Shown: positions 128-42,034 of the stretch, in pieces | Layout: each line of letters opens with the position of its first letter | How positions within the stretch are numbered: position 1 is the first letter of the stretch | From: a virus | Virus record (IMG/VR): IMGVR_UViG_3300020202_000042 | Span: 1 to 42,034 of that record | Reading direction: 5' to 3' (one strand) | Length of the DNA stretch: 42,034 bases | Made by a program: the position numbers and the translations under genes | Notes under the pieces: generated by a model | Seen by the model: the letters and a program-made list of their open reading frames with translations, nothing else | Database searches by the model: none | What the model was told of the DNA's origin: nothing

Positions 128-818
128 CGGGATCCACGCCAGCCGCGTCACTGCTGGCGACGGCAGCGGATTGGACCATCGCCGCCCGCACTTAACCAGG
201 TCGAACGGCGTGCACGCGAAAAACTGGACCGACGACGGTATCTGGAAACAAAAGCCTGTAGTCAGCGGCCACGGTCACGGGATCCATTCCACCGCAAACC
301 CCGGCTTGATTCAGTTTTTCGGAGAACTCCAGGGCCGTCTGCGCCGCGTGCGCGTGTGTTGTGGCGACTGGTCGCGCGTCGTGAAACCCTCCGTCACGGA
401 GAACAACGGTTTAACCGGCGTGTTTCTCGATCCGCCCTACGGCGTCGAAGACCGCGACAAGGTCTACAACCACGACAGCCTGGACATTTCCGCCGACGTC
501 CGCAAATGGGCCATCGCCAACGGCAACAACCCGAAGTTGCGTATCGCGCTCTGTGGCTACGACGGCGAACACGACATGCCCAAAGACTGGGACGTCGTTA
601 GCTGGAAGGCCAACAGCGGATACGGCGGCCAGCGCAAAAGCGGCCGCAACGAAAACCCCACGCGCGAACGCATCTGGTTTTCGCCGCACTGCCTGCAACC
701 GCTCGCCTTGTTTAACAACCTGAAAGGAAGCTCACATGGGAACGGCAATCGCCACCGCAGCACCCGACGAATTCAACGAACGAAAACTGCTCAAGCTGAT
801 CCAGCCGCGGCGCAATGA
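1..818 (+). CDS. DNA adenine N6-methyltransferase (D12 class), 3' part
   Basis: This is the C-terminal part of a gene that starts at 41538 and crosses the contig joint; the joined gene encodes about 395 aa. The frame enters at base 3 and ends with TGA at 816-818. It contains the catalytic motif DPPYG (bases 429-443, Asp267 of the joined protein), which binds the target adenine in alpha-group Dam-like enzymes. The stretch before it repeats a Gly-Ile-Trp ... Gly-His-Gly-Ile-His pattern twice (about bases 95-140 and 238-285), a Gly/His-rich insert of the kind often seen in phage members of this family. The last 83 bases overlap the next gene in another frame. Expected role: methylating adenines in phage DNA to escape restriction. 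The family call is strong; the target sequence cannot be read from the gene. Confidence 0.9.
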   Translation, partial: AWIGDNWCRPKSGSKPRLDRGGVGINRDGIWHKRPQTGKGGHGIHASRVTAGDGSGLDHRRPHLTRSNGVHAKNWTDDGIWKQKPVVSGHGHGIHSTANPGLIQFFGELQGRLRRVRVCCGDWSRVVKPSVTENNGLTGVFLDPPYGVEDRDKVYNHDSLDISADVRKWAIANGNNPKLRIALCGYDGEHDMPKDWDVVSWKANSGYGGQRKSGRNENPTRERIWFSPHCLQPLALFNNLKGSSHGNGNRHRSTRRIQRTKTAQADPAAAQ

Positions 819-1017
819 TCCAGCGCCAATGTGCGTCGATATCGCCCAGGCCGCGCGGATGTTGTCCACGCACCCGCGCCGCATTAAAGCGCTGATCCGC
901 AATGGCGAACTCTCAGCGCTGAAAATTCCGGGGTGCAAATCGTTGCGGATCCGCACCGCCGCATTAGATAGCTACCTGCGCGTCATGGAACAGACGCACA
1001 AAAACAACTCTATTTGA
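736..1017 (+). CDS. Small helix-turn-helix protein, probable excisionase
   Basis: This 93-aa protein starts at an ATG preceded by AAAGGAAGCTCAC. Residues 32-85 form an excisionase/MerR-type helix-turn-helix: an N-terminal helix-turn-helix (DIAQAARMLSTHPRRIKALI), a small wing (ALKIPGCKSLRI) and a final helix. It overlaps the end of the methylase gene by 83 bases and sits 15 bases before the integrase gene, the usual place for a recombination directionality factor. The fold call rests on pattern; the excisionase role is inferred from position. It could instead be a transcription regulator. Confidence 0.65.
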   Translation: MGTAIATAAPDEFNERKLLKLIQPRRNDPAPMCVDIAQAARMLSTHPRRIKALIRNGELSALKIPGCKSLRIRTAALDSYLRVMEQTHKNNSI

Positions 1018-1032
1018 TCCCGGGGGGGATGT

Positions 1033-2805
1033 ATGCACGGAGAACGATACCGTTCTGCCAGGTCCGGTCGTGTCGGCTGGCGGTTCCGCTACACAGATCC
1101 AATCGACGGCAAACGCAAACGCCGCGTCGAATTCATCGACGACCAGCGCAAAGCCGAAAAGGCCATGCACGCCTTTTTAGATTCACGCGAACAGGTGAAG
1201 ATCGGCTTGCCCGATACGGCCAACTGGCAGATGTCCTATCGTGCCCTGGTCGAACGCTTCCTGGAAGAAGCACCGATAACCACCGACGACCGCCGCGGCC
1301 GTTTGAAAAAATGCCTCGAACGCAACCTGCTGAAGGTTAACGTCGCCGCCGATCTTGGTTCACCCGGCAAACTCACGCAACGACTTCGCAAAGTTGCGAA
1401 GACGCACGGCGACCATTACGCCGCGTGCTACGTTCAGAAGTTCACCAAACAGTTAACCCGCTGGGCGGCCGCCGAAGGCATTCTGCCGCAAGACCCGCTG
1501 GCCAACTGGCAGACGTTGCCCTTTGATCGCGTGCGCGAAAGGCGAGCGTTCGAACCGCACGAGCTGCGCGCCGTGCTCGCCGCGGCCGTCGACCTCGACA
1601 GCCTGTTAGGCCACGAAAACCCCAGCGCGCTGACGTTCACCACGCTACTGGTCACGGGCAACCGGCCGTCGGCAGTGCTCAACGCTAAAATTTTAGACTT
1701 TGACTCAAAGCGTATACATCTGCCGCGCGGCAATGGGAAGAAGCGCAACGGACTGGCCACGGTTCCGCCGGCGCTGGCGAAGATCCTGCATAGCCACGCC
1801 GCCGGCCGCTCCGAAAAGGAACCGCTGTTACTCAGCCACGAAGGCGACGCGTGCAACCGCAACAACATGCACAAATACTTCAAGCGCTGCGCGACGCTGG
1901 CCTTCGTGCGTTTGTGCTGGCCACAGTTGGACGACGTCGACGCCGCCGCCGTTCAACAACTGCAACTGAACGTCGCGTATCTCATCTATCACGGCAAGCT
2001 GCGCGGCAAGGACGGACCGCCGGCGAAGAACCCCAAGAAGATCGCGGCGCGCAAACGCGTCGAAGCGCTGGTGACCGACATTGCCGACCAGATCCGGCCG
2101 GAAGTCGAACGCCGCCTGCTGGGCCGTGACATGTACAGCCTGCGCAAAACCCATATCAGTTGGGCGCGCCGGCTGGCCAATCATGACAGCGTGCGCTTGC
2201 AAGTCGGACGAGCGCCGCGCGACGTGGACGAACGCCATTACGTTGACCTGGTGGACGCGCACGAAAGCAGCCGCGCCGTGTGGGACGTGCTCGCCGGCGC
2301 GCGAAACCTGTCCGGAGAAGTGATCGAACCCGCCGAAGATTTCCCGTTGCTGCAACACGCCGCCGGCGCCGAAGCGCTGACCAGCGCCGCGGTCATGACC
2401 GCCAGAAACCCGCGGCAAGTGGGCTCCAATGTGGCCACAATTGGAAAAACCGCCGAACTTTTCGAAAATTCACCGACAAAAAAACCCACGCAAAACGTGG
2501 GTGTGTCGAGAGTTGTAAATGGCGTACCCGGGGGGATTCGAACCTCCGACCTCAGCCTTCGCAGGGCCAAACGGGAAGCTGTCCAAACTGAACCGCACGT
2601 AACTCGTTTCGCATCGGATCGAACTCCGGAAAAACTTGCCGACCCCGCTCCCCATTCTGCGCCAAATGGGCTCCAATGTGGCCAGATTGTAAGCCTGCCT
2701 AAGTCCACCCTGGCCGACCTGATACGCCAAGCCGCCACCACTCCCGAAGCCGATTTAGACCGCCTTTTAGAGAAAGTGGTCGGAAGATCGGAGGGTGCGC
2801 AATGA
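1033..2805 (+). CDS. int: Tyrosine recombinase (phage integrase) with attP inside its 3' end
   Basis: This 590-aa frame starts at an ATG with a strong G-run ribosome site (CGGGGGGGATGT). The N-terminal 170 aa are arm- and core-binding-like. The catalytic domain spans about residues 170-420: Arg211 (TGNRPSAV), box II with Arg371 (MYSLRKTH, where Tyr368 takes the usual first His place), Arg393 in the LGH-box position, and the nucleophile Tyr403 (ERHYVDL, encoded near 2239). The enzyme should recombine attP with a bacterial attB. The last 130 aa (from about residue 463) are translated from the attachment-site DNA, including the telltale GGIRTSDLSL peptide of an antisense tRNA end. The stop overlaps the next start as ATGA, so translation through attP is plausible. 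The integrase call is secure; the role of the tail is unknown. Confidence 0.9.
   Translation: MHGERYRSARSGRVGWRFRYTDPIDGKRKRRVEFIDDQRKAEKAMHAFLDSREQVKIGLPDTANWQMSYRALVERFLEEAPITTDDRRGRLKKCLERNLLKVNVAADLGSPGKLTQRLRKVAKTHGDHYAACYVQKFTKQLTRWAAAEGILPQDPLANWQTLPFDRVRERRAFEPHELRAVLAAAVDLDSLLGHENPSALTFTTLLVTGNRPSAVLNAKILDFDSKRIHLPRGNGKKRNGLATVPPALAKILHSHAAGRSEKEPLLLSHEGDACNRNNMHKYFKRCATLAFVRLCWPQLDDVDAAAVQQLQLNVAYLIYHGKLRGKDGPPAKNPKKIAARKRVEALVTDIADQIRPEVERRLLGRDMYSLRKTHISWARRLANHDSVRLQVGRAPRDVDERHYVDLVDAHESSRAVWDVLAGARNLSGEVIEPAEDFPLLQHAAGAEALTSAAVMTARNPRQVGSNVATIGKTAELFENSPTKKPTQNVGVSRVVNGVPGGIRTSDLSLRRAKREAVQTEPHVTRFASDRTPEKLADPAPHSAPNGLQCGQIVSLPKSTLADLIRQAATTPEADLDRLLEKVVGRSEGAQ
2389..2402. repeat. 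Palindrome GCGGTCATGACCGC, copy 1
   Basis: This perfect 14-bp palindrome lies inside the integrase gene, just upstream of attP. The same 14 bases recur at 3549, 20934 and 21087. Confidence 0.6.
2420..2437 (+). repeat. Putative integrase arm site, left copy
   Basis: TGGGCTCCAATGTGGCCA is found here and again at 2667-2684 in the same orientation. The two copies are read in different codon phases, so the likeness is constrained at the DNA level and is not a peptide repeat. Confidence 0.7.
2478..2501 (-). terminator. Rho-independent terminator carried beside the tRNA end
   Basis: On the minus strand CCCACG, a five-base loop and CGTGGG are followed by seven T. It lies 19 bases downstream of the tRNA CCA end, as a host tRNA terminator would, so integration would supply both tRNA 3' end and terminator. 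Confidence 0.8.
2520..2569 (-). other. tRNA 3'-end fragment (attP core candidate)
   Basis: Read on the minus strand: T-stem GGAGG/CCCCC around the loop TTCGAAT (2547-2531), acceptor 3' strand CGGGTAC (2530-2524), discriminator G and encoded CCA (2522-2520). Upstream is a possible anticodon arm, TGGCC-CTGCGAA-GGCTG (2569-2553), whose loop would give a GCG anticodon, unusual for bacterial arginine tRNA. No matching 5' acceptor strand or clear D-arm follows, so this is a fragment and not a working tRNA gene. The identity of the host tRNA is uncertain. Confidence 0.8.
2667..2684 (+). repeat. Putative integrase arm site, right copy
   Basis: Exact second copy of the 18-bp repeat at 2420-2437, on the other side of the tRNA-like core, 247 bases away. 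Confidence 0.7.
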
Positions 2806-3584
2806 AACCTTTGAACACGGGCGAAGTGCTCGCCGCGTTGCGCGGCCGCTATTCCGGCAGCGCTTGGGCATTCTTGACGGAAGTGCCAAACGGTACCGGA
2901 TTCGCCGGCACGCGGTCAGCGGACGGAATTGCAATGAGTCTGTGGCCATCGCGCGGCCTCGAACTCCACGGCATCGAAATCAAAGTGTCGCGCTCCGACT
3001 GGCTGCGCGAATTGAAAGACCCCGGCAAAGCCGACGACTTCTTTAATTACTGTGACCGCTGGTGGGTTGCTGTCGGCGATCCTGCCATTGTCAAAGACGG
3101 AGAACTGCCGCCGAATTGGGGGCTACTGATACCCCGCGGTAAATCGCTCTTTCAGAAAGTCGAAGCGGGCAAGCTGTCACCGATACCGCCGGATCGTTGT
3201 TTTCTCGCCGCATTGATGCGCCGCGCATGTGAACAACTGGTGCCGAAATGCGAAATCACGGAACGCCTTAACCAAGCCAGGGAAGAAGGCCGCGAAGAGG
3301 AACGGCGGAACGTTCGTTTCAATGCGCAAGAACTCGTGGAACTACAGAAGGCGGTAAAGGATTTTGAAACGGCCTCCGGTATTCGACTGAGTCATTGGGA
3401 CGCCGGCAAGGTTGGCGAATTGGTGCGCAAGCTGCGCAATCTCCCTCATCGGCAAGACATTCGATCGGACATCGAACGCCAGTTGCGCCAAGCTGAAGGC
3501 ACGGCGAACGGTCTTAAAGCCATGCTCAAAGAACTCGATGAAGTCGCGGCGGTCATGACCGCCGCGAAGGAGGCGCACGCATGA
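2802..3584 (+). CDS. PD-(D/E)XK-like nuclease, MmcB-like
   Basis: This 260-aa protein starts in an ATGA overlap with the integrase stop. Residues 50-105 have the layout of MmcB-type/restriction-endonuclease-like proteins: GIEIKVSRSDWLREL (E-x-K pair), then a Lys-Ala-Asp-Asp segment, then YCDRWWVAVGD. The C-terminal half is charged and helical, with a probable coiled coil at 140-175 and 215-245. It ends in an ATGA overlap with the Gp37/Gp68-family gene, which suggests coupled translation and a shared task in DNA repair or phage DNA metabolism. The nuclease fold is inferred from motif spacing; activity and substrate are unknown. Confidence 0.6.
   Translation: MKPLNTGEVLAALRGRYSGSAWAFLTEVPNGTGFAGTRSADGIAMSLWPSRGLELHGIEIKVSRSDWLRELKDPGKADDFFNYCDRWWVAVGDPAIVKDGELPPNWGLLIPRGKSLFQKVEAGKLSPIPPDRCFLAALMRRACEQLVPKCEITERLNQAREEGREEERRNVRFNAQELVELQKAVKDFETASGIRLSHWDAGKVGELVRKLRNLPHRQDIRSDIERQLRQAEGTANGLKAMLKELDEVAAVMTAAKEAHA
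3544..3567. repeat. 24-bp perfect palindrome (extended GCGGTCATGACCGC, copy 2)
   Basis: The 14-bp core at 3549-3562 is extended by five bases on each side to a perfect 24-bp palindrome, ending 13 bases before the start of the next gene at 3581. It is the longest of four copies and could be a protein-binding site. Confidence 0.6.
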
Positions 3585-4645
3585 GCAACCGCACCGGCAT
3601 CGAATGGACCGACGCCACGAGTAACCCGCTGCGCTATCGCAACCCGGCTGGAAAGGCGGTGTGGGGTTGCGTGAAGGTTTCTTCAGGCTGCACGCATTGC
3701 TACGCCGAGGGCATGGCCAAACGCTTTGGCCGGGGTGAGCCGTTTACTGCTGTCACCATGGGCAAGCTGATCCCCTACCTGGACGAAAAGGAAGTGCGCC
3801 ACCTGCTCACATCCAAAACGCTCACGGGTAAACGCGTGTTCCTCAACGACATGACGGACATGTTTGGCGAGTGGGTGTCTGACGAGCTACTCGACCAGAT
3901 GTTCGCCGTCATGGCGTTGCGCCCAGACGTCACGTTTCAGGTGCTCACCAAACGCGCCGAACGCATGCGGCGGTATTTCGCGGCGTACGGTAACCGTGAA
4001 GGGCTGGTGTTTCGCGCCGCACTTCCGTTCTGCAATCAGATCGGAAAGGACTGGGATTACCACATCCGCAAAGATCGTCGGCCAGACTGGCCGCTGCCCA
4101 ACGTCTGGCTGGGCGTCAGCGTCGAAGACCAGAAAGCTGCCGATTCACGCATTCCTGAATTGTTGAAAACGCCCGCGGCCGTGCGGTTCCTGTCGTGTGA
4201 ACCGTTGCTGGGCTCGGTGACACTTCGAGAAATACAGCACAACGGGGAAGTTGAAATTGACGCGTTGACCGGTGACCACGGGGTTATTCGTCCACTGCAG
4301 GGCCGCTCAGTAAACCGGATTGATTGGGTCATCGTCGGCGGTGAAAGCGGCGCCGGCGCCCGGCCCATGCATCCGGATTGGGCGCGCTCGATCCGCGACC
4401 AATGCCAAGAGGCGGGCGTCGCTTTCTATTTCAAGCAGTGGGGTCACTGGCTGGACTTCGAAGAAGCACGACGGCGGAAGATCTTAACCAAGTCTGGCGG
4501 TTGTTTCATCAGCGAATGGCATTTCGTCAACGGTCTGCTGCGCGCCGGTCACCAGAATATGGAACCCGTCGGCAAAGCAAAAGCTGGCCGCCTTCTCGAC
4601 GGCCGAGAGTGGTCCGAATTCCCAGCCGTACCCGCATCTGTTTAG
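3581..4645 (+). CDS. Phage Gp37/Gp68 family protein (DUF5131)
   Basis: This 354-aa protein matches the Gp37/Gp68 family: IEWTDATSNP at the start, then the family cysteine cluster WGC-(x6)-C-(x2)-CYAE (Cys30, Cys37, Cys40), NDMTDMFGEWV at about 88-98, FQVLTKRAERM at about 119-129, NVWLGVSVEDQ near 175, RFLSCEPLLG near 205, VIVGGESGAGARPM near 250, and FYFKQWG near 285. The family has a radical-SAM-like layout with a three-cysteine motif; its biochemical activity is not established. Its start overlaps the nuclease-like gene (ATGA), so the two are probably made together. The family call is strong. Confidence 0.88.
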   Translation: MSNRTGIEWTDATSNPLRYRNPAGKAVWGCVKVSSGCTHCYAEGMAKRFGRGEPFTAVTMGKLIPYLDEKEVRHLLTSKTLTGKRVFLNDMTDMFGEWVSDELLDQMFAVMALRPDVTFQVLTKRAERMRRYFAAYGNREGLVFRAALPFCNQIGKDWDYHIRKDRRPDWPLPNVWLGVSVEDQKAADSRIPELLKTPAAVRFLSCEPLLGSVTLREIQHNGEVEIDALTGDHGVIRPLQGRSVNRIDWVIVGGESGAGARPMHPDWARSIRDQCQEAGVAFYFKQWGHWLDFEEARRRKILTKSGGCFISEWHFVNGLLRAGHQNMEPVGKAKAGRLLDGREWSEFPAVPASV

Positions 4646-4674
4646 TTTTAAGTGAACGTTGGAGTAAGCCGCGC

Positions 4675-5556
4675 ATGGCGAAACTACCTTACTTCAAAGT
4701 GTACCCCGGCGACGACATGCAGTCGCCGGTCTTCGGCTGTTCCCTGGCTGCGCAGGGGCTTTATGAACGCATGCGCTACATCGCTCACAATGGATCCCCT
4801 CGCTACGGGTTCCTCGAAAACGCTTCTGGCGGCCTTGCCTCTTCTGTAATCGCAGCGCGTTGCGGTTGCCAGTTGAGCAACTTCCAGAACACCTTTCAGG
4901 AATTACTGTCAGCAGGCGCGATCCATTGCGACGAGAAGGGCATCGTTTATTTTCCTGAACTGGTCGAACAGCAGAAACAACGCGACGCCGACGCCGCCCG
5001 AAAAAACAAATCGCGCCACGACAAAACCATGCCGCTGGCGCTGGGCGCCGATCCACCCGAACACCCGCCAAATGTCACACCGCCGGTCACACCGCCGTCA
5101 GTGTCATTGTCAGTTAAACAGCAACAGACTACTACCGCGCCGCCAGCGGCCGCGGTCGGAAATTCTTTGGCGCTGAAAAACAGCACGAAGAACTACGCGA
5201 AACAGGCGGCCACGGACGAAGACTGGCGCGACGTGGACCACTGGCGCGCCATTCTCATGCGTGCCGGCTGGGCCAACGACGGCTTGCTCTCGGCGCTGAT
5301 TAAACTCGGCAAACAGCGCGTGAAGCTGGCCAGCCAGCCCGACCTGGAGGCGTACAAGTTTCTCGCCCAGGGCATCAATGCCGTTACCGATCCGGTCGTG
5401 CGCAACCGCTACCGGGTCGTGCACAGTGGCGGATACAACCCGAACGAATACGAACTGGCGCAGGCCAAACGCGCGCTGTTCAACGAACGCAACAAAGCAG
5501 CACAGGCCGCCGGCGGACCAAAGAAACTCGCCGCCGTTCTCGCCGCGGGGGAATGA
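4675..5556 (+). CDS. Replication initiator / replisome-organiser-like protein
   Basis: This 293-aa protein has its start set by GGAG at 4661; the open frame runs further upstream but only inside the preceding gene. The N-terminal 100 aa (PYFKVYPGDDMQSPVF ... LSAAQGLYERM-type segment ... EELLSAGAI) resemble the winged-helix domain of phage replisome organisers and DUF1376-like proteins. A low-complexity Pro/Thr linker (about 125-165) leads to a helical C-terminal domain (175-270). With no polymerase or helicase in the genome, this is the best candidate for starting phage replication by recruiting host enzymes. The call is moderate and based on layout. Confidence 0.5.
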   Translation: MAKLPYFKVYPGDDMQSPVFGCSLAAQGLYERMRYIAHNGSPRYGFLENASGGLASSVIAARCGCQLSNFQNTFQELLSAGAIHCDEKGIVYFPELVEQQKQRDADAARKNKSRHDKTMPLALGADPPEHPPNVTPPVTPPSVSLSVKQQQTTTAPPAAAVGNSLALKNSTKNYAKQAATDEDWRDVDHWRAILMRAGWANDGLLSALIKLGKQRVKLASQPDLEAYKFLAQGINAVTDPVVRNRYRVVHSGGYNPNEYELAQAKRALFNERNKAAQAAGGPKKLAAVLAAGE

Positions 5557-5799
5557 ATGGCCGCATTGCTGCCGTTCAACATCAAGTGTCCGAAGTGCGG
5601 CAACACGGACTATAACGACCGATGCGGCCCGTGCATGGCGCGCGAGTATGCGTACATCATCATCCGTTACCGGCCGAAAACGTGGCGCAACAAGCTCGAA
5701 CATATGGCTGGATTTTGTGGAGCGTGCCGCGCGTGGTGGAAAATGCGCTGCAAAGACGACGACGAACTACTGGCCGAAGTGCTGAAAGGAAACAAATGA
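5557..5799 (+). CDS. Small zinc-ribbon protein
   Basis: This 80-aa protein starts directly after the preceding stop. It has two cysteine pairs, CPKC (residues 11-14) and CGPC (23-26), and a further CGAC near residue 55, followed by aromatic and basic residues (RAWWKMRC). This looks like a zinc ribbon. Its function is unknown; it lies between the replication-like gene and the Mom-like gene and overlaps the latter by 4 bases (ATGA). Confidence 0.7.
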   Translation: MAALLPFNIKCPKCGNTDYNDRCGPCMAREYAYIIIRYRPKTWRNKLEHMAGFCGACRAWWKMRCKDDDELLAEVLKGNK

Positions 5800-6245
5800 A
5801 TGCCGAAACGCCGAATTGGTGGATCACGAAAGACGGCGATCGCGCGGCGTTGGCCCTCTACAATCGGCACTACTCGGCGTACAATTATAAAGACGGCCGG
5901 CAGCGGAGGCTATTTTGCGGGCCAGGTGAAAAGTTCGTGCTGCGTACGTGGGATGAAACAGCGTTATTTGTTTGGCGTAAATTCAAAGACGACTCGGGCC
6001 AAAAAGGAATTAACTGCGCAGTCTTCCGAAACGAGGGCGCATTGCGCTCGTCCGGGCTTATTCGAGAAGCGGACGCAATTGCTTTTAAAATCTGGCCTGG
6101 TGAAAGGCATTATACCTACGTCAATCCGGAGAGAGTGCGATCCGAAAATCCGGGGTATTGTTTCCTTATGGCCGGATGGAACAAATGCGGCACAACAAAG
6201 GGCGGGCTGTTAGTTCTGGAAATTACAGCGCCTTCTCAGCCTTAA
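5796..6245 (+). CDS. Mom-like GNAT-fold protein
   Basis: This 149-aa protein starts in an ATGA overlap with AAAGGAAAC upstream. The order of segments fits the Mom/acetyltransferase-like fold known from phage Mu: YNRHYS near 22-27, FRNE near 77-80, a long helix LIREADAIAFKIWPG (88-102), YTYVNPERVRSENPG (106-120), and a terminal AGWNKCGTT (126-134). Mom adds a carbamoylmethyl-type group to adenine in DNA and protects phage DNA from restriction. I infer the family from this layout; the exact chemistry is not shown. It is the last gene of the rightward arm and overlaps the 1796-aa gene tail to tail by 23 bases. Confidence 0.5.
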   Translation: MNAETPNWWITKDGDRAALALYNRHYSAYNYKDGRQRRLFCGPGEKFVLRTWDETALFVWRKFKDDSGQKGINCAVFRNEGALRSSGLIREADAIAFKIWPGERHYTYVNPERVRSENPGYCFLMAGWNKCGTTKGGLLVLEITAPSQP

Positions 6246-9200
6246 GCAACTGCTGGTATTCCGCGCTCTTGTTCTTGCCCTCTTTGCGTAGCGCGTCTTT
6301 CCGCTTGGTGATTGCGCGTTTCTGCGCGCGCCGCGTCTCTTCTTCGGCATCGATCGACACGATACGCTGGCCGGCCAGAAGGTTCAGCCCCACTTCGCCG
6401 CCGCTCTTGCGCTCGTCCGTCGCCTTGCTGGCCGTGTTCGATAGGCGCGAGAGTGGCGAACGCTGCAACGCAAACAGCGCGTACGGGTCCATTTCATAGC
6501 GCTTGTTGCCGTCCTTGCCCGTCTCTTCGCTCACGCCCAGCACCGCCTTAACGCTGTCCGGCATGTCTTCAACGTAGTGCGGAGCCTTCGTGTTGCTCTC
6601 AATGGGGCGCTGTAAAAAGAAGTCTTGCCCGCTGGCCACTTCCAGCGGCGTCTTAATGATCGGATTCAGCGAATTCAGCGCAAAGTGTAGCGGGTTCGCG
6701 ATCGGCTGCGCCGCGGCTTCAATCGGCGTGCCCAGGTCGTAGGCCACCGTGCGATTGCCTTCGCTGTCGATACCCGTATTCACGCCCAGCCCCTGTCGCG
6801 CGTATTCGGGCAGATGTTCCGGCTTGCTTGGTTGCTGGCCAAGTTGCGTAATGCGTTTCACTTTGCGAACGTCGTTCAATGCCGTGTCCAAAACCATCGG
6901 CAGAACGTTGCGCGTGTAGCCGTAGAAGAATACGACGCGATTCATGACGTTCTTTTCGAAGTCGTTCATGTTCTGTTTGCTGTAGTCGAACAGGTATTTG
7001 TCGACGTGCTGCGCCGCGGCCGCCGGCGACAAGCCCTGCTGGCGCATATAAACGTAATGCCCCAGGCGGTCGGTGTTCTCCAGTATCTTGCCGTCAATCT
7101 TGGAAAGGTTTTTCGTGGCGCCAGAAGCCACACGCCCCGGACCGGCGGCAAGCGTCGCACCGACCTTTTCGCCCATCTTCAACACGCGGTTATCGACGAA
7201 AACGTTGTTCGGGTCGCGCGGATCGAAGCTCCAGCCCTTGCCTTTTGTGCTGTCCAGCCGTTCGGCCAGGCCGTCGGTCGTATCAGCCGCACCTTCCAGA
7301 AGATCTTCGAAGTAACCGCCCTTCAGCGCGCGAGCGTCCGCCGCCTCTTTAATCAACTGGTCGCGCGTCAGCGTCTTGCCGTCGCCTAATTTTACTTTCA
7401 CGTCGGCGCCGGCCATGACCTGGTTGGCAATCTTGTAATGTTCGCCCGTCGTCGGCACACCGCCCAGCCAACTCTGCACGCGGTTGCTGATATGGTTGCG
7501 CACGTGGAACGCCGGGAATGCCCGCGTGATGCTGCTTTTGAAAATGCGTGTGATGCCGTCGTACCACTGCAACAGCGGCCCGACTTCTTCGGGATTCTGC
7601 AACTTGTTCTGCATTTCAAGAATCGCCGTCGCCGTCTGCGGGTCATAGCTGACAGGTTCCAGCCCGCGGGCGATACGCTGTTTGTTGTGTTCGGTCAGGC
7701 CCACCGTGCCGTCGCTGAATTGCGTCAGTACTTCCGTGCCGTTTTCGTCCAGCTTGATCGCTTTACCGCCTTCGGCAATCTTCGGGTCGATAGGCTTGCC
7801 GACGTTCTCGCCAATGCGGTCCAGCATTTTCTGCCCGGCCATGGCGCGTATATGCCGCGCCTCACGAGCGAACTGTTGCGCCGCGGGGTTCGGATTGAAG
7901 ACGGGATTTTTGCCGTTCCACTTGCTGAAGACGCTGTTCAATTCTTCAATCGTCAGGTCGCGATAGGCCGGCAGACGGGCAATCTGTGACGGGTGGCTGT
8001 TGTCGATCGATCGCGAGAACGCCAAAAACTCGTCCTTCAGGCCCTCGCGCAGTATGAACTGGCGCGCCTCGTCGTCCAGATCAAGCAGCGCCTTTTCGCC
8101 TACGTTCTGAACGTTTAAAGGAACCGGCTTACCCTTCTGCAGGTCCGGCGCTTTACCGTGCGTCTTGCTGACGATCGACCGTTCGGCCGCTTCTTTCTCC
8201 AGCTTAGGCAGGTTGGGAATCGACTCCGCCGCGGGCGTCAGGCCCTTTGCCAGACGCTGTTCGTGCAACGCCTGGAACACAGCGAATTGTTTCTTCGGGT
8301 AGCGCTTCAACGACTGGAAGAACCGCCGGCCTTCTTCGGTCGACACGTGCGTGGTGTAATCGATCGCGCCTTTGTACGCCGCGGACTTCAGCCCCGCTTT
8401 CTGTTCCACTTCCAGCATGGTCTTGTACTTCTCGCGGATCTTCCCGGCGAGTTTCATCAATTCAGGCGCGTCGGACGCGTCCAGCTTTTCCAGCAGGTTG
8501 GTGACCCGCGTGTGGACTTCCGGCGCCAAACCCTTCGAAATCTGCGCCGCGTCTTTCGCGGCCGCTTTCGTCGCTTCGGCCACTGGCTGCAATTGGCCGA
8601 CGACCTTCTGTTCCGCGTTGTACTGACGGTCCTGCTGCATCATGTCGCGCAGGTCTTCACGTGTCTTGTCAGACGGGCGGCCGCCGGCGGCGCGTATCTC
8701 CGCCTGTGTTTTGGCAATGCGGTCCGGGCGAGTTTCAGCAATGACGCGCCGCGCGTCTTCAATGCGCCCCGCTTTCATCAGGTCGTTAGACAGCCGCGCC
8801 AGTTCAACGTTGGAAAGCGCCTTCAGGTTCTGCGGAATGGTCGGACCATCGCCAGGCGCCGGCGCGACCATCTGCGCCTTATCGTCCGGCACGCGTGCGG
8901 ATCCGCTTTCCAGAATGTCGTCAGACCCCTTGCGCAAACTTGCGTCCTTGCCTATGAGATTGTCAGGCGCGCGATTCGCCGCGGCATCCGGTATTCGAAC
9001 GTCGTTTCGATCACCCAATTTTCGGGCGGGCAGTTCTCCAGATAGAACAGATCCCGCATCGCCACCAGGTCGCGGCCGGACGGCTTGCGCGCCTTCCGCC
9101 GCTTCATCCACCATTCCCGCAGGATTGACGCCCAGCTTCGCTTCTGTCGCCGCGAGCACGTCGGCGGCTTTGTTGATCTTCGCAATTTTCGGGTCTGGCC

Positions 9201-11613
9201 CGCGCAACTCCGGCGGCATGAATTCATCGATCACCCCTTCCGGCGCGCGGTTTATCGCCGTTCCTTTGTCCTTCGGTACCAGCCCTTCCGGCACCGTAAT
9301 GTCGGGTAGGTCCGTATCCTTCAGGCGTATTTTGCCGTCAGGCGTAAACTCCTTCGCCTCCCACGGATGGCCCGCAAACTTCAATTTGTCGCCGGGTGCA
9401 ACATCCCCTACGAACTCGACCTTCTTCAGGTTCGGCAGCGGCGCTTGCCCCGCCTCGACTTTGGGCAGCAGGTCTTCCAGCAATTTCGGCAGCGCGGCGG
9501 CCTGGCCTTTGGGACCGACATCATCAATACCCAGCCCACGCAGCAAGTCGTCGCGCTTCTCTTTAACAAAACTCTGCGCCTCCATGCCCAGGTTCACTTC
9601 GCCGTCAACCCGGCCGCCCTTCATCAGCAATTCGTCGGGTATGCCCGTCTGTTCCAGGTGCAGCTTGCGAGCATCCGCGGCCAGGTCGCGGGTTTCTTTG
9701 GGAACGGTGGCGTTTTCGAAGCGCTTCTGCGCGTTCGCCAGATCTTTGCGCACGAACTTGTCGCGGCGCTTCGCCTTATCGATAGGCACCATCCACTGGC
9801 CCGACGGCGTTTCAATCGTCGCCATGCCGCTGGCGTCGTCGATGTTGACGACCTTGCCTTTCAGCGCTTTGCGCAAGCCCCGCGCACCGCCAACGGCATC
9901 CGCCGGCCGGAACTCCACGCCGTGGCCCTTCTCCAGCTTCGTGAAGTCGTCAAACACCGGCCGCGCCGCGTCCGCTGCGCCCATCGGAGCGTCAGCCGGG
10001 GAGAGAGTGGGCCCGTTGACCGGCGCGGCCGGAGCGGGAGGCGCCGCCGGCGTTTCTACTGGTGGCACTTCACCGCGCGCCCGTGCGCGCTCTAACAATT
10101 CCTCGTCGCTGAACGGTTTCAGTGCCGGCGCCGGTGGCGGTGGCATCTGCGTCACTTCGGCAACGTTCGGCTTTGGCTTTAAAATCAGATTGCCGTAGCG
10201 GTCGGCGTCGGTCATTTCATCCAGCAACGACGGCGGCGGCGCCGGGAGTGTGGGCCCCGTGAATTCCGTTTCGTCGAAAATGCTTCGAGTCGGCGCCGCC
10301 TCGATTACGTTTCCCGTGGCGTTATCAATCAGATTGCCGTTTTCATCCAAGTGCGTGTTGAAGTGGTCAACAGCGCTAGGCGGTGGCGTGATGATCGGTG
10401 CCGGCGGCGGCGCCTTCTCCAGCCCCGTCAATTCGTTCAGCATCGCTTCGGCTTCGCGCGCCGCGTCGCCTTCGCCCTTCGCCACGTCGCGGAAAAAGTC
10501 TTCCTTCGCCGCTTTGATCGCCGCGCCCGCTTTGCCCGCCACGCCCGCGGTTTTGCTGAACAGATTGCCCACGTCGCGAATAACGGGCGCCCCGGCAAAC
10601 GTTCTCCAGGCGTCCTGTATCTTCTGCGCCGTCTCTGCGCCTTCGATCAATGTTTTTTGCGGCAGGTCAAAGCCCAGTTTGCCCAGGTAGGGCAGGGGCG
10701 CGAAAGGCTCAACCCGTCCGCCAATGCTGAACAGCGCTTCCTGCCCACGGTTCACCCGGTCGCCGGCGTTCTCGGCAATTTCAAACGCTTCATCGCCCAG
10801 CCCGCGCGCCGCTTTGTTCTCCAGCAATTCACGCGCAGCCGCGCCCACTTCGTCGTTGCGCTGCGCCAGGCGTTTCACCAATTCTTCACGCGAAACCGCT
10901 TCCCCGGCGTCGTCCACCAGGTCGCCAAGTAAATCGTGCACGGGTTTTTTCGGTGGTTTCTTCACCACTGTTTCGGCGACGTCGTCAACTAAAGACACCC
11001 CGTCAGCGGCGGCCTGTTCGACGACGTTCTGCGCGGAGCGTCGGGCAAGTTCTTTTGCGCCCTTAACCTCATTGGCATACTTCGCCGCCAGCTTCGCCGC
11101 GTCGTCCAGATACGGCGTTACTTTCGACGTGGCCCGGCCCACACCAGACAATGCCTTGATGCCCATGAATCCGGGTAGAAGGTTCAAAGGATCTAGCAGG
11201 ATTTCAGACGCCAGCCCAGCCGCGCCGGCGCCGCTAAACAGCGGGTTATCCGTGCGGTCAACCAGCCCATAGTTGTGCAGCAGTTCCTGCCCGCTGACGC
11301 GGCTGCCAGCCTTGCCGGCCAGCAACCCGCGAAACAGCGCTCCCGGTGTATCCAGCACATACCCGACCTTCGAAAGGAACCCTTCTTCCTGTGGTTCCGG
11401 TTCGGGAAGTGCAATGGGTTCAGGTTCGGCCACGGGTGGCAGCACCGGCGCCGGTTCTTCAGGCTCAATCGGACTAAGCCCAAGCAAGTCGTCCAATGGA
11501 TCGCGCGGCCGTGGGGGATTTCTGCGACGACGTACGGCGGCCGGCATCGGCGCAGGTTCTTCCTGCGCGGCGGGCGTTGTCATCATCCGTAAAATGTCGT
11601 CGTACGCTGCCAT
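6223..11613 (-). CDS. Very large internal virion protein with LPD38-like region
   Basis: This 1796-aa protein is the last gene of the leftward arm. Residues 1-80 are rich in Pro/Glu; residues 80-170 hold several hydrophobic helices (GFLSKVGYVLDTPGALFRG, LASEILLDPLNLLPGFMG). The middle (about 380-620) is Ala/Pro-rich linker, and the C-terminal third holds the segment ITRAFPAFHVRNHISNR (around 1370) and VFFYGYTRNVLPMVLD (around 1563), typical of large polyvalent proteins (LPD38-like). Such giants in short-tailed phages are packaged in the capsid and ejected with the DNA. No polymerase or lytic-transglycosylase motif was recognised. The family hint is moderate; the virion role is inferred from position after the other internal-protein genes. 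Confidence 0.7.
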   Translation of the reverse strand: MAAYDDILRMMTTPAAQEEPAPMPAAVRRRRNPPRPRDPLDDLLGLSPIEPEEPAPVLPPVAEPEPIALPEPEPQEEGFLSKVGYVLDTPGALFRGLLAGKAGSRVSGQELLHNYGLVDRTDNPLFSGAGAAGLASEILLDPLNLLPGFMGIKALSGVGRATSKVTPYLDDAAKLAAKYANEVKGAKELARRSAQNVVEQAAADGVSLVDDVAETVVKKPPKKPVHDLLGDLVDDAGEAVSREELVKRLAQRNDEVGAAARELLENKAARGLGDEAFEIAENAGDRVNRGQEALFSIGGRVEPFAPLPYLGKLGFDLPQKTLIEGAETAQKIQDAWRTFAGAPVIRDVGNLFSKTAGVAGKAGAAIKAAKEDFFRDVAKGEGDAAREAEAMLNELTGLEKAPPPAPIITPPPSAVDHFNTHLDENGNLIDNATGNVIEAAPTRSIFDETEFTGPTLPAPPPSLLDEMTDADRYGNLILKPKPNVAEVTQMPPPPAPALKPFSDEELLERARARGEVPPVETPAAPPAPAAPVNGPTLSPADAPMGAADAARPVFDDFTKLEKGHGVEFRPADAVGGARGLRKALKGKVVNIDDASGMATIETPSGQWMVPIDKAKRRDKFVRKDLANAQKRFENATVPKETRDLAADARKLHLEQTGIPDELLMKGGRVDGEVNLGMEAQSFVKEKRDDLLRGLGIDDVGPKGQAAALPKLLEDLLPKVEAGQAPLPNLKKVEFVGDVAPGDKLKFAGHPWEAKEFTPDGKIRLKDTDLPDITVPEGLVPKDKGTAINRAPEGVIDEFMPPELRGPDPKIAKINKAADVLAATEAKLGVNPAGMVDEAAEGAQAVRPRPGGDAGSVLSGELPARKLGDRNDVRIPDAAANRAPDNLIGKDASLRKGSDDILESGSARVPDDKAQMVAPAPGDGPTIPQNLKALSNVELARLSNDLMKAGRIEDARRVIAETRPDRIAKTQAEIRAAGGRPSDKTREDLRDMMQQDRQYNAEQKVVGQLQPVAEATKAAAKDAAQISKGLAPEVHTRVTNLLEKLDASDAPELMKLAGKIREKYKTMLEVEQKAGLKSAAYKGAIDYTTHVSTEEGRRFFQSLKRYPKKQFAVFQALHEQRLAKGLTPAAESIPNLPKLEKEAAERSIVSKTHGKAPDLQKGKPVPLNVQNVGEKALLDLDDEARQFILREGLKDEFLAFSRSIDNSHPSQIARLPAYRDLTIEELNSVFSKWNGKNPVFNPNPAAQQFAREARHIRAMAGQKMLDRIGENVGKPIDPKIAEGGKAIKLDENGTEVLTQFSDGTVGLTEHNKQRIARGLEPVSYDPQTATAILEMQNKLQNPEEVGPLLQWYDGITRIFKSSITRAFPAFHVRNHISNRVQSWLGGVPTTGEHYKIANQVMAGADVKVKLGDGKTLTRDQLIKEAADARALKGGYFEDLLEGAADTTDGLAERLDSTKGKGWSFDPRDPNNVFVDNRVLKMGEKVGATLAAGPGRVASGATKNLSKIDGKILENTDRLGHYVYMRQQGLSPAAAAQHVDKYLFDYSKQNMNDFEKNVMNRVVFFYGYTRNVLPMVLDTALNDVRKVKRITQLGQQPSKPEHLPEYARQGLGVNTGIDSEGNRTVAYDLGTPIEAAAQPIANPLHFALNSLNPIIKTPLEVASGQDFFLQRPIESNTKAPHYVEDMPDSVKAVLGVSEETGKDGNKRYEMDPYALFALQRSPLSRLSNTASKATDERKSGGEVGLNLLAGQRIVSIDAEEETRRAQKRAITKRKDALRKEGKNKSAEYQQLLKAEKAL
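8926..8944. repeat. 19-mer CCCCTTGCGCAAACTTGCG, copy 1
   Basis: This copy lies inside the 1796-aa gene. Exact copies of 18-19 bases are at 28336 and 31594, and a diverged one near 35292. Here TTGCGC is followed after 17 bases by TATGAG on the plus strand. Confidence 0.7.
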
Positions 11614-39107: not shown

Positions 39108-39389
39108 ATGAATTTTGGTCAGGCACTCGACGCACTCAAAGAAGGAAAACGCGTTTCGCGTTCGGGATGGAACGGCAAGGGCATGTGGCTTGCCATTCAA
39201 CCCGGCACGGTCATCACTGAAGAACAAGCCCGCGGCGGCGCCGCCTTGGGTCGCGCGAAGGAAGCGCCCGGCACCCCGATAACGATCCTGCCACACATCG
39301 ACATGCGTGCCGCAGATGGATCGATCGTCGTCGGCTGGCTCGCCTCACAGACCGACATGCTGGCTGAAGATTGGGACGTGGTTTCGTAG
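39108..39389 (+). CDS. tad2: DUF2829 protein, Tad2-like anti-Thoeris
   Basis: 93 aa with AAAGGAACGCT before the ATG. It shows the DUF2829 signature from end to end: FGQALDALKEGKRVSRSGWN (3-22), GKGMWLAIQPG (23-33), LPHIDMRAADGSIVVGWLAS (61-80), and QTDMLAEDWDVV (81-92). Members named Tad2 bind the cyclic ADP-ribose-type signal made by Thoeris ThsB and so silence this anti-phage defence. The family call is strong; binding of a given signal by this protein is not tested. Confidence 0.9.
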   Translation: MNFGQALDALKEGKRVSRSGWNGKGMWLAIQPGTVITEEQARGGAALGRAKEAPGTPITILPHIDMRAADGSIVVGWLASQTDMLAEDWDVVS

Positions 39390-41281: not shown

Positions 41282-41541
41282 GCGAAACGACCGAAAAGGG
41301 CCGCGTGCGCACGTTCCACATGACCGTCGATATCCGCGGCGGGCTCAAGCTGCCCAACCGGATCTTGGCCGGCATGCTTGTACGCGATGACGGCACACGC
41401 TTAACCGCTGAAGAAGCGCGCGAAGAATTGCTGCAAGCGTTCCGCAAGGGCTACGACGTCCTGCCCACCTGCGACAACCACGACGAAAAAGGCCACTGCC
41501 TCGGCCACGACAAAGAAGAATCGGAGGCGCCGGCGAAATGA
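41278..41541 (+). CDS. Hypothetical early protein
   Basis: 87 aa, ATGA-coupled at both ends. It has TRLTAEEAREELLQAFRKGY and a metal-type C-terminus (CDNHDEKGHCLGHD). Its final codons repeat the end of the 39-aa gene (EAPAK; GGAGGCGCCGGCGAAATGA in DNA), which suggests local duplication. No family recognised. Confidence 0.6.
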   Translation: MSETTEKGRVRTFHMTVDIRGGLKLPNRILAGMLVRDDGTRLTAEEAREELLQAFRKGYDVLPTCDNHDEKGHCLGHDKEESEAPAK

Positions 41542-42034
41542 CCCTGCGCGCTCCGTTCCCGTGGTTCGGTGGTAAATCGCGCGTCGCGGCCGACGTGTGG
41601 GACCGCTTTGGCGACGTCAACAATTACGTTGAACCCTTCGCCGGATCGCTCGCCGTGCTGCTGGGCCGGCCGAACGAACCGCGCATCGAAACCGTGAACG
41701 ACAAGGATTGTTACCTGGCCAATTTCTGGCGCGCCGTATCGATCGACGCCGCCGGGGTCGCGCACTACGCCGACTGGCCCGTCAACGAAGCGGACCTGCA
41801 CGCGCGCCACTTGTGGATGCACCAGCAGACCGACTTCCGTAAACGCATGGAGAAAGACCCCGACTACTTCGACGCGCGCATTGCCGGCTGGTGGGTATGG
41901 GGCTTGTGCGCGTGGATCGGTGACAACTGGTGCCGGCCGAAGTCGGGGAGCAAACCGCGGCTCGATCGCGGCGGCGTCGGCATCAATCGTGACGGCATCT
42001 GGCACAAACGCCCGCAGACCGGCAAGGGTGGTCA
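41538..42034 (+). CDS. DNA adenine N6-methyltransferase (D12 class), 5' part
   Basis: Starts in an ATGA overlap after GGAGGCGCCGGCGAA and runs off the window, continuing at base 1. Residues 7-13 (FPWFGGK) and 30-37 (YVEPFAGS) are the AdoMet-binding motifs of Dam-like D12 enzymes; VNDKDCYLANFWRAV (about 53-67) and WVWGLCAWIGDNWC follow. The DPPY catalytic motif is in the other part. Last gene before the excisionase and integrase. Probably protects phage DNA from restriction or marks it for regulation. Confidence 0.9.
   Translation, partial: MTLRAPFPWFGGKSRVAADVWDRFGDVNNYVEPFAGSLAVLLGRPNEPRIETVNDKDCYLANFWRAVSIDAAGVAHYADWPVNEADLHARHLWMHQQTDFRKRMEKDPDYFDARIAGWWVWGLCAWIGDNWCRPKSGSKPRLDRGGVGINRDGIWHKRPQTGKGG
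41908..42034. repeat. Terminal direct repeat, right copy
   Basis: Identical to 1-127; see left copy. It closes the map at 41,907 bp. Confidence 0.95.

Follow-up and report, generated by a model that had tools for sequence, protein, structure and literature searches.

The virus record IMGVR_UViG_3300020202_000042 was analysed over its whole length of 42,034 nt, referred to here as the window. Its first 127 bases are identical to its last 127 bases, so the genome is complete and circular, with 41,907 bases, and its attachment region is intact. Near its left end an excisionase-like gene (xis) is followed by the integrase gene (int) and by further genes on the same strand, and the int reading frame accommodates a partial tRNA gene, a terminator and a pair of direct repeats. 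The features are listed below.

736..1017, plus strand: excisionase-like gene directly 5′ of int (HTH_17 PF12728, E 1.3e-7; TIGR01764 "excise", E 4.8e-7, over the cut-off)
1033..2805, plus strand: tyrosine integrase ORF of 590 aa (phrog_216, E 1.3e-4; PF00589, E 0.009; motifs)
2412..2437, plus strand: left copy of a 26-nt direct repeat, proposed arm-type Int site
2477..2502, minus strand: phage-borne intrinsic terminator of the tRNA, with an 8-bp stem (2502-2484) and a T-run
2520..2569, minus strand: 3′ half of a tRNA-Arg, from CCA to the anticodon arm (anticodon GCG), recognized by anatomy and blastn, with the proposed attP core and crossover inside
2543..2802, plus strand: int codons 504-590, the part expected from the anatomy to be exchanged with a crossover at the T-loop (about 80 codons if at the anticodon loop)
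2659..2684, plus strand: right copy of the same 26-nt repeat, likewise a proposed arm-type Int site
2802..3584, plus strand: MmcB-like nuclease/DNA repair gene with an ATGA overlap with the int stop (phrog_14517, E 6e-54; phrog_5429, E 9e-22)
3581..4645, plus strand: DUF5131/gp88-like gene with an ATGA overlap with the preceding MmcB-like gene (PF07505, E 1e-81)
4675..5556, plus strand: weakly replisome-organizer-like gene (phrog_13246, E 4e-5)

The early genes face the largest ORF of the phage (1796 residues, 6223-11613, minus strand), which is convergent with them and overlaps the end of the gene at 5796-6245 by 23 bp.

The integrase gene and the proposed attachment region within it

The int product carries Arg211, an RKTHI box at 371 and the catalytic Tyr403 in ERHYVDL (codon 2239-2241), in agreement with the catalytic motif pattern of tyrosine integrases (R...H/R-x-x-R/H...Y). 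The profile scores are weak, PF00589 reaching just 16 bits against a cut-off of 27 bits, but they agree with a tyrosine integrase. The structure predicted by AlphaFold without alignment is poor (mean pLDDT 42) and may serve as a hint only; it suggests an arm-binding-like N-terminus, a stretch without structure at residues 480-555 (low confidence) and two short helices at 557-583. The C-terminus reads ...GRSEGAQ. The reading made earlier from the sequence only had described a frame open for 590 residues that overlaps the next gene, and this is what we found: the stop codon TGA (2803-2805) sits within an ATGA whose ATG, at 2802, starts the MmcB-like gene.

On the minus strand within int the parts of a tRNA 3′ half follow each other in the correct order: CCA (2520-2522), the discriminator G (2523), the 3′ strand of the acceptor stem (2524-2530), the T-stem and T-loop (2531-2547), the variable loop AGGTC (2548-2552) and the anticodon arm (2553-2569), the loop of which, CTGCGAA, contains the anticodon GCG (Arg). 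By blastn the segment is similar to annotated phage tRNA-Arg genes (E 3e-6) and to plasmid tRNA-Arg genes (E 1e-7), identified by ARAGORN as tRNA-Arg. The tRNA gene is a fragment: ARAGORN detected none, and the Rfam tRNA model gave 15 bits against a cut-off of 29 bits. The T-stem contains an A-C mismatch (GGAGG/CCCCC). Right beyond the fragment, at 2570-2585 of the minus strand, the Rfam model aligns CTTCCCG to the 5′ strand of the acceptor stem, in degenerate form and without a D-arm, which may be chance or a relic. The segment corresponds to int codons 496-513 and starts about 93-95 codons after Tyr403, which bears out the placement of the core in the int frame after residue 490, well past the catalytic tyrosine.

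The terminator begins 17 nt past the CCA, on the same strand as the tRNA, the arrangement to be expected of a phage that supplies a host tRNA gene with a restored 3′ end. It had been claimed that the int frame crosses both the tRNA end and the terminator; the in-frame run is real, but the terminator, being confined to the minus strand, belongs to the tRNA and would leave the int message unaffected. The two copies of the direct repeat (24 of 26 positions identical, 247 bp from start to start) lie on either side of the tRNA core, likewise within the int frame. The 17-nt core of the repeat has no further occurrence in the window at up to 3 mismatches, and as many matches were obtained in 2 of 100 shuffles. 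The repeats are best read as candidate arm-type Int sites, and their spacing is in line with the usual attP size of about 250 bp given in PMC4383910. Each copy also contains a near-palindrome around CAATGTGGCCA (2427-2443 and 2674-2689) that could be a separate binding site.

Judged by its anatomy, the region 2412-2684 with the tRNA piece, the terminator and the repeats would be attP, the crossover point within it being a proposal. The observation that an attP-like region lies within int is confirmed for this phage record. Taken together, we consider it likely that the module is the integration unit of a temperate tailed phage, composed of genes for an excisionase and a tyrosine integrase, the 3′ end of int being overlapped by an attP of about 270 bp, in the layout of Myxococcus phage Mx8. 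As in that phage, the prophage form of Int would most likely remain catalytic with altered activity.

Evidence for translation of the integrase tail, and its predicted exchange

Dinucleotide-preserving shuffles put the chance of an open int frame at 0.6% for the stretch from the Tyr codon to 2802 and at 1.8% from 2419 onwards. The codon-usage signal of int is strong up to 2418 (p 0.0005), at the level of shuffles in 2419-2658 and marginal in 2689-2802 (p about 0.05). Between 2506 and 2775 the int frame holds no ATG, GTG or TTG, which leaves the terminal stretch upstream of 2802 without an evident separate start codon. The ATGA stop/start overlap is found in 13 of the 45 pairs of neighbouring same-strand genes of this phage. 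The evidence that the 590-residue Int is made is moderate and not conclusive.

On integration Int would recombine the phage tRNA segment with a host tRNA-Arg gene. Since the tRNA points towards int, the int side would gain the 5′ half of the host gene and an intact tRNA would be rebuilt with the 3′ end and the terminator borne by the phage. The int frame would then run antisense across the tRNA half contributed by the host and continue into host DNA, acquiring a tail defined by the host, and its message would be antisense to the rebuilt tRNA. The exchanged end of Int would amount to about 80-90 residues, or about 87 with the crossover at the T-loop. The old int tail and the coupled genes 2802-6245 would come to lie at the opposite end of the prophage, separated from the xis-int transcript, and excision would restore the full-length Int and reunite the operon. 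In silico T-loop joints to two unrelated tRNA-Arg genes, serving as illustrations and not as the true host, gave hybrid proteins with lengths of 550 and 519 aa, the frame being open across all or most of the tRNA. The anatomy thus lends good support to two claims of the sequence-only reading, namely that Int would keep its catalytic part with the last residues replaced by a translation of host tRNA antisense sequence, and that int would be cut off from the genes 2802-6245.

Both classes of crossover are common in genomic islands (1836 in the T-stem class and 2083 in the anticodon class, according to PMC4383910). The A-C mismatch of the T-stem would enter the rebuilt tRNA with a crossover in the anticodon loop and would not do so with one at the T-loop or at the T/acceptor junction, so the latter positions are preferred here. 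An extended version of the scheme, in which the tail exchange is accompanied by translational (ATGA) uncoupling of the nuclease/replication operon from xis-int, the early genes being made only from the excised circle, is conceivable but rather unlikely.

The Mx8 precedent and other readings of the locus

The principle of an attP within int is already known from Mx8, of which the present phage is a further case of modest novelty; integrases with the att site in their own gene are described in PMC4701971 as present in very few elements. For the uoi-int-attP arrangement of Mx8, PMC6070905 and PMC4701971 cite Tojo 1996 and Magrini 1999. According to PMC6070905 the Mx8 attP is located within the int coding sequence, and integration creates a new 3′ end by which Int is modified, not inactivated; PMC4701971 states that 13 residues replace 112 upon integration and that the prophage form is less active. 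The Islander authors allow for integrases extending across attP and give Mx8 and SSV as examples (PMC4383910). An altered integrase had been proposed as the feature that sets this phage apart from switches acting on regulatory genes; that novelty does not stand, since Mx8, as presented in these three sources, does the same.

In both phages an HTH_17 excisionase gene adjoins int upstream (directly 5′ of it in the Mx8 genome also), and attP (a candidate in the present phage) occupies a position in int downstream of the catalytic Tyr codon, with an antisense-tRNA peptide in Int. In the Mx8 Int this peptide is STGLEPV at 415-421, followed by exactly 112 residues to the end, a long free-phage tail comparable to the 80-90 or so residues here that would likewise be swapped for a host-defined one. 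The placement of the candidate core and of xis thus agrees with the Mx8-type layout, whereas homology to the Mx8 Int beyond the superfamily was not found: the two Ints lack detectable BLASTP similarity (E 2.2), and phrog_216 is matched by both but phrog_1 by the Mx8 Int only. The two Ints also differ in the frame that crosses the tRNA (GLEP in Mx8, GIRT here), and the next gene starts 47 bp after int in Mx8 instead of overlapping it by ATGA. Mx8 also has an adenine methylase gene (mox) upstream of uoi-int; in the present phage a D12-class adenine DNA methyltransferase gene (plus strand, 41538-42034 continuing at 128-818 across the record junction) lies upstream of xis-int.

The strongest competitor, possible though clearly the less probable reading, is neutral read-through: attP and the open frame would be real, but stop codons are often absent from antisense tRNA halves, and an int abutting attP would simply run on, the exchange of tails being without effect. 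In the tRNA-Arg examples examined the corresponding antisense frame does remain free of stops through much or all of the gene, the codon signal is at shuffle level in 2419-2658 and residues 480-555 are, with low confidence, predicted to be structureless. An effect of the tail is suggested, on the other side, by the low chance of the frame staying open from 2419, by its end precisely in an ATGA overlap, by the weak return of the codon signal after 2689 and by the precedent of Mx8, in which the change of tail is described as altering the behaviour of the integrase (PMC6070905, PMC4701971). A reading of the tRNA piece as a dead relic, with integration of the phage at another site, appears improbable. 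The T-stem mismatch and the absence of a matching tRNA from all genomes in one pattern scan (genome_contigs) would fit a relic, but that pattern required an exact match, so a slightly different host tRNA would be missed, and the CCA, the terminator, the flanking repeats, xis and int are all correctly placed together.

Other systems in which integration removes the end of a gene resemble the locus in part. In the integration-dependent immunity of mycobacteriophages (BPs type; M. abscessus prophages MabN/MabB) attP also lies inside an ORF whose 3′ end is lost, and PMC9934374 describes that ORF as a repressor gene with an ssrA-like tag. The sequence-only reading had been reminded of such integration-dependent switches, and a stability switch of this type, with the free-phage tail acting as a degradation tag removed by integration, shares the geometry described in PMC9934374; it is nevertheless very improbable here and without support, as the gene is int and not a repressor, and its product ends in ...GRSEGAQ with no ssrA-like AA end and no visible tag. 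Least credible of all is a suicidal integrase of the archaeal SSV/pT26-2 type, which inactivates itself on integration. Such integrases do have a tRNA-bearing attP inside the int ORF, and both blastn and tblastn matched the int of pT26-2, where the tRNA-Arg segment (202-255) is read as NGGPGGIRTRDLRLRS. The frame is that of NGVPGGIRTSDLSLRR in the present Int and the residues are nearly identical; this peptide likeness probably comes from conservation of the tRNA. The position of attP contradicts such a reading: it lies near residue 70 in pT26-2, upstream of the catalytic domain, which integration splits off (PMC8371274), whereas here the core is past Tyr403 and the catalytic domain would stay whole. 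Moreover, the class is described as exclusively archaeal (PMC8371274), and a Pfam search revealed no PF16795 match in the phage. A further parallel is offered by streptococcal ICEs in rumA, in which the att site is inside the integrase gene and the C-terminus differs between the integrated and excised forms (PMC4701971), although the enzyme is a serine integrase and the target is rumA.

By analogy with these systems, a regulatory role of the int tail swap is plausible. A further tyrosine-integrase case in an unrelated phage, with no detectable BLASTP relation to Mx8 and another tRNA frame, would point to more than one origin of tail swapping, and the phage offers a small system for asking whether the Int tail controls the direction of recombination.

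Searches for relatives and an additional gene

Relatives of Int were found neither in viral_contigs (searched with the whole Int, the catalytic C-terminal piece and a degenerate motif) nor in genome_contigs or among PDB sequences, and tblastn against phages and plasmids, including searches with the core only and E values up to 10, gave none that was usable. Exact patterns for the host tRNA had no match in viral_contigs and genome_contigs, and no attB, attL, attR or integrated copy was found in the collections searched. The pattern of the arm repeat matched twice in viral_contigs, both times by chance in tape-measure-like genes. The terminase large subunit has no relatives in viral_contigs and only distant ones in the phages collection (about 25-27% identity, PaP3-like and environmental podoviruses); none of four records with distant terminase or capsid matches contains an Int like the present one.

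Elsewhere in the window, a small gene at 39108-39389 (plus strand) contains a Pfam Tad2-like domain (Thoeris anti-defense 2-like, E 6e-27) and probably encodes an anti-Thoeris protein.
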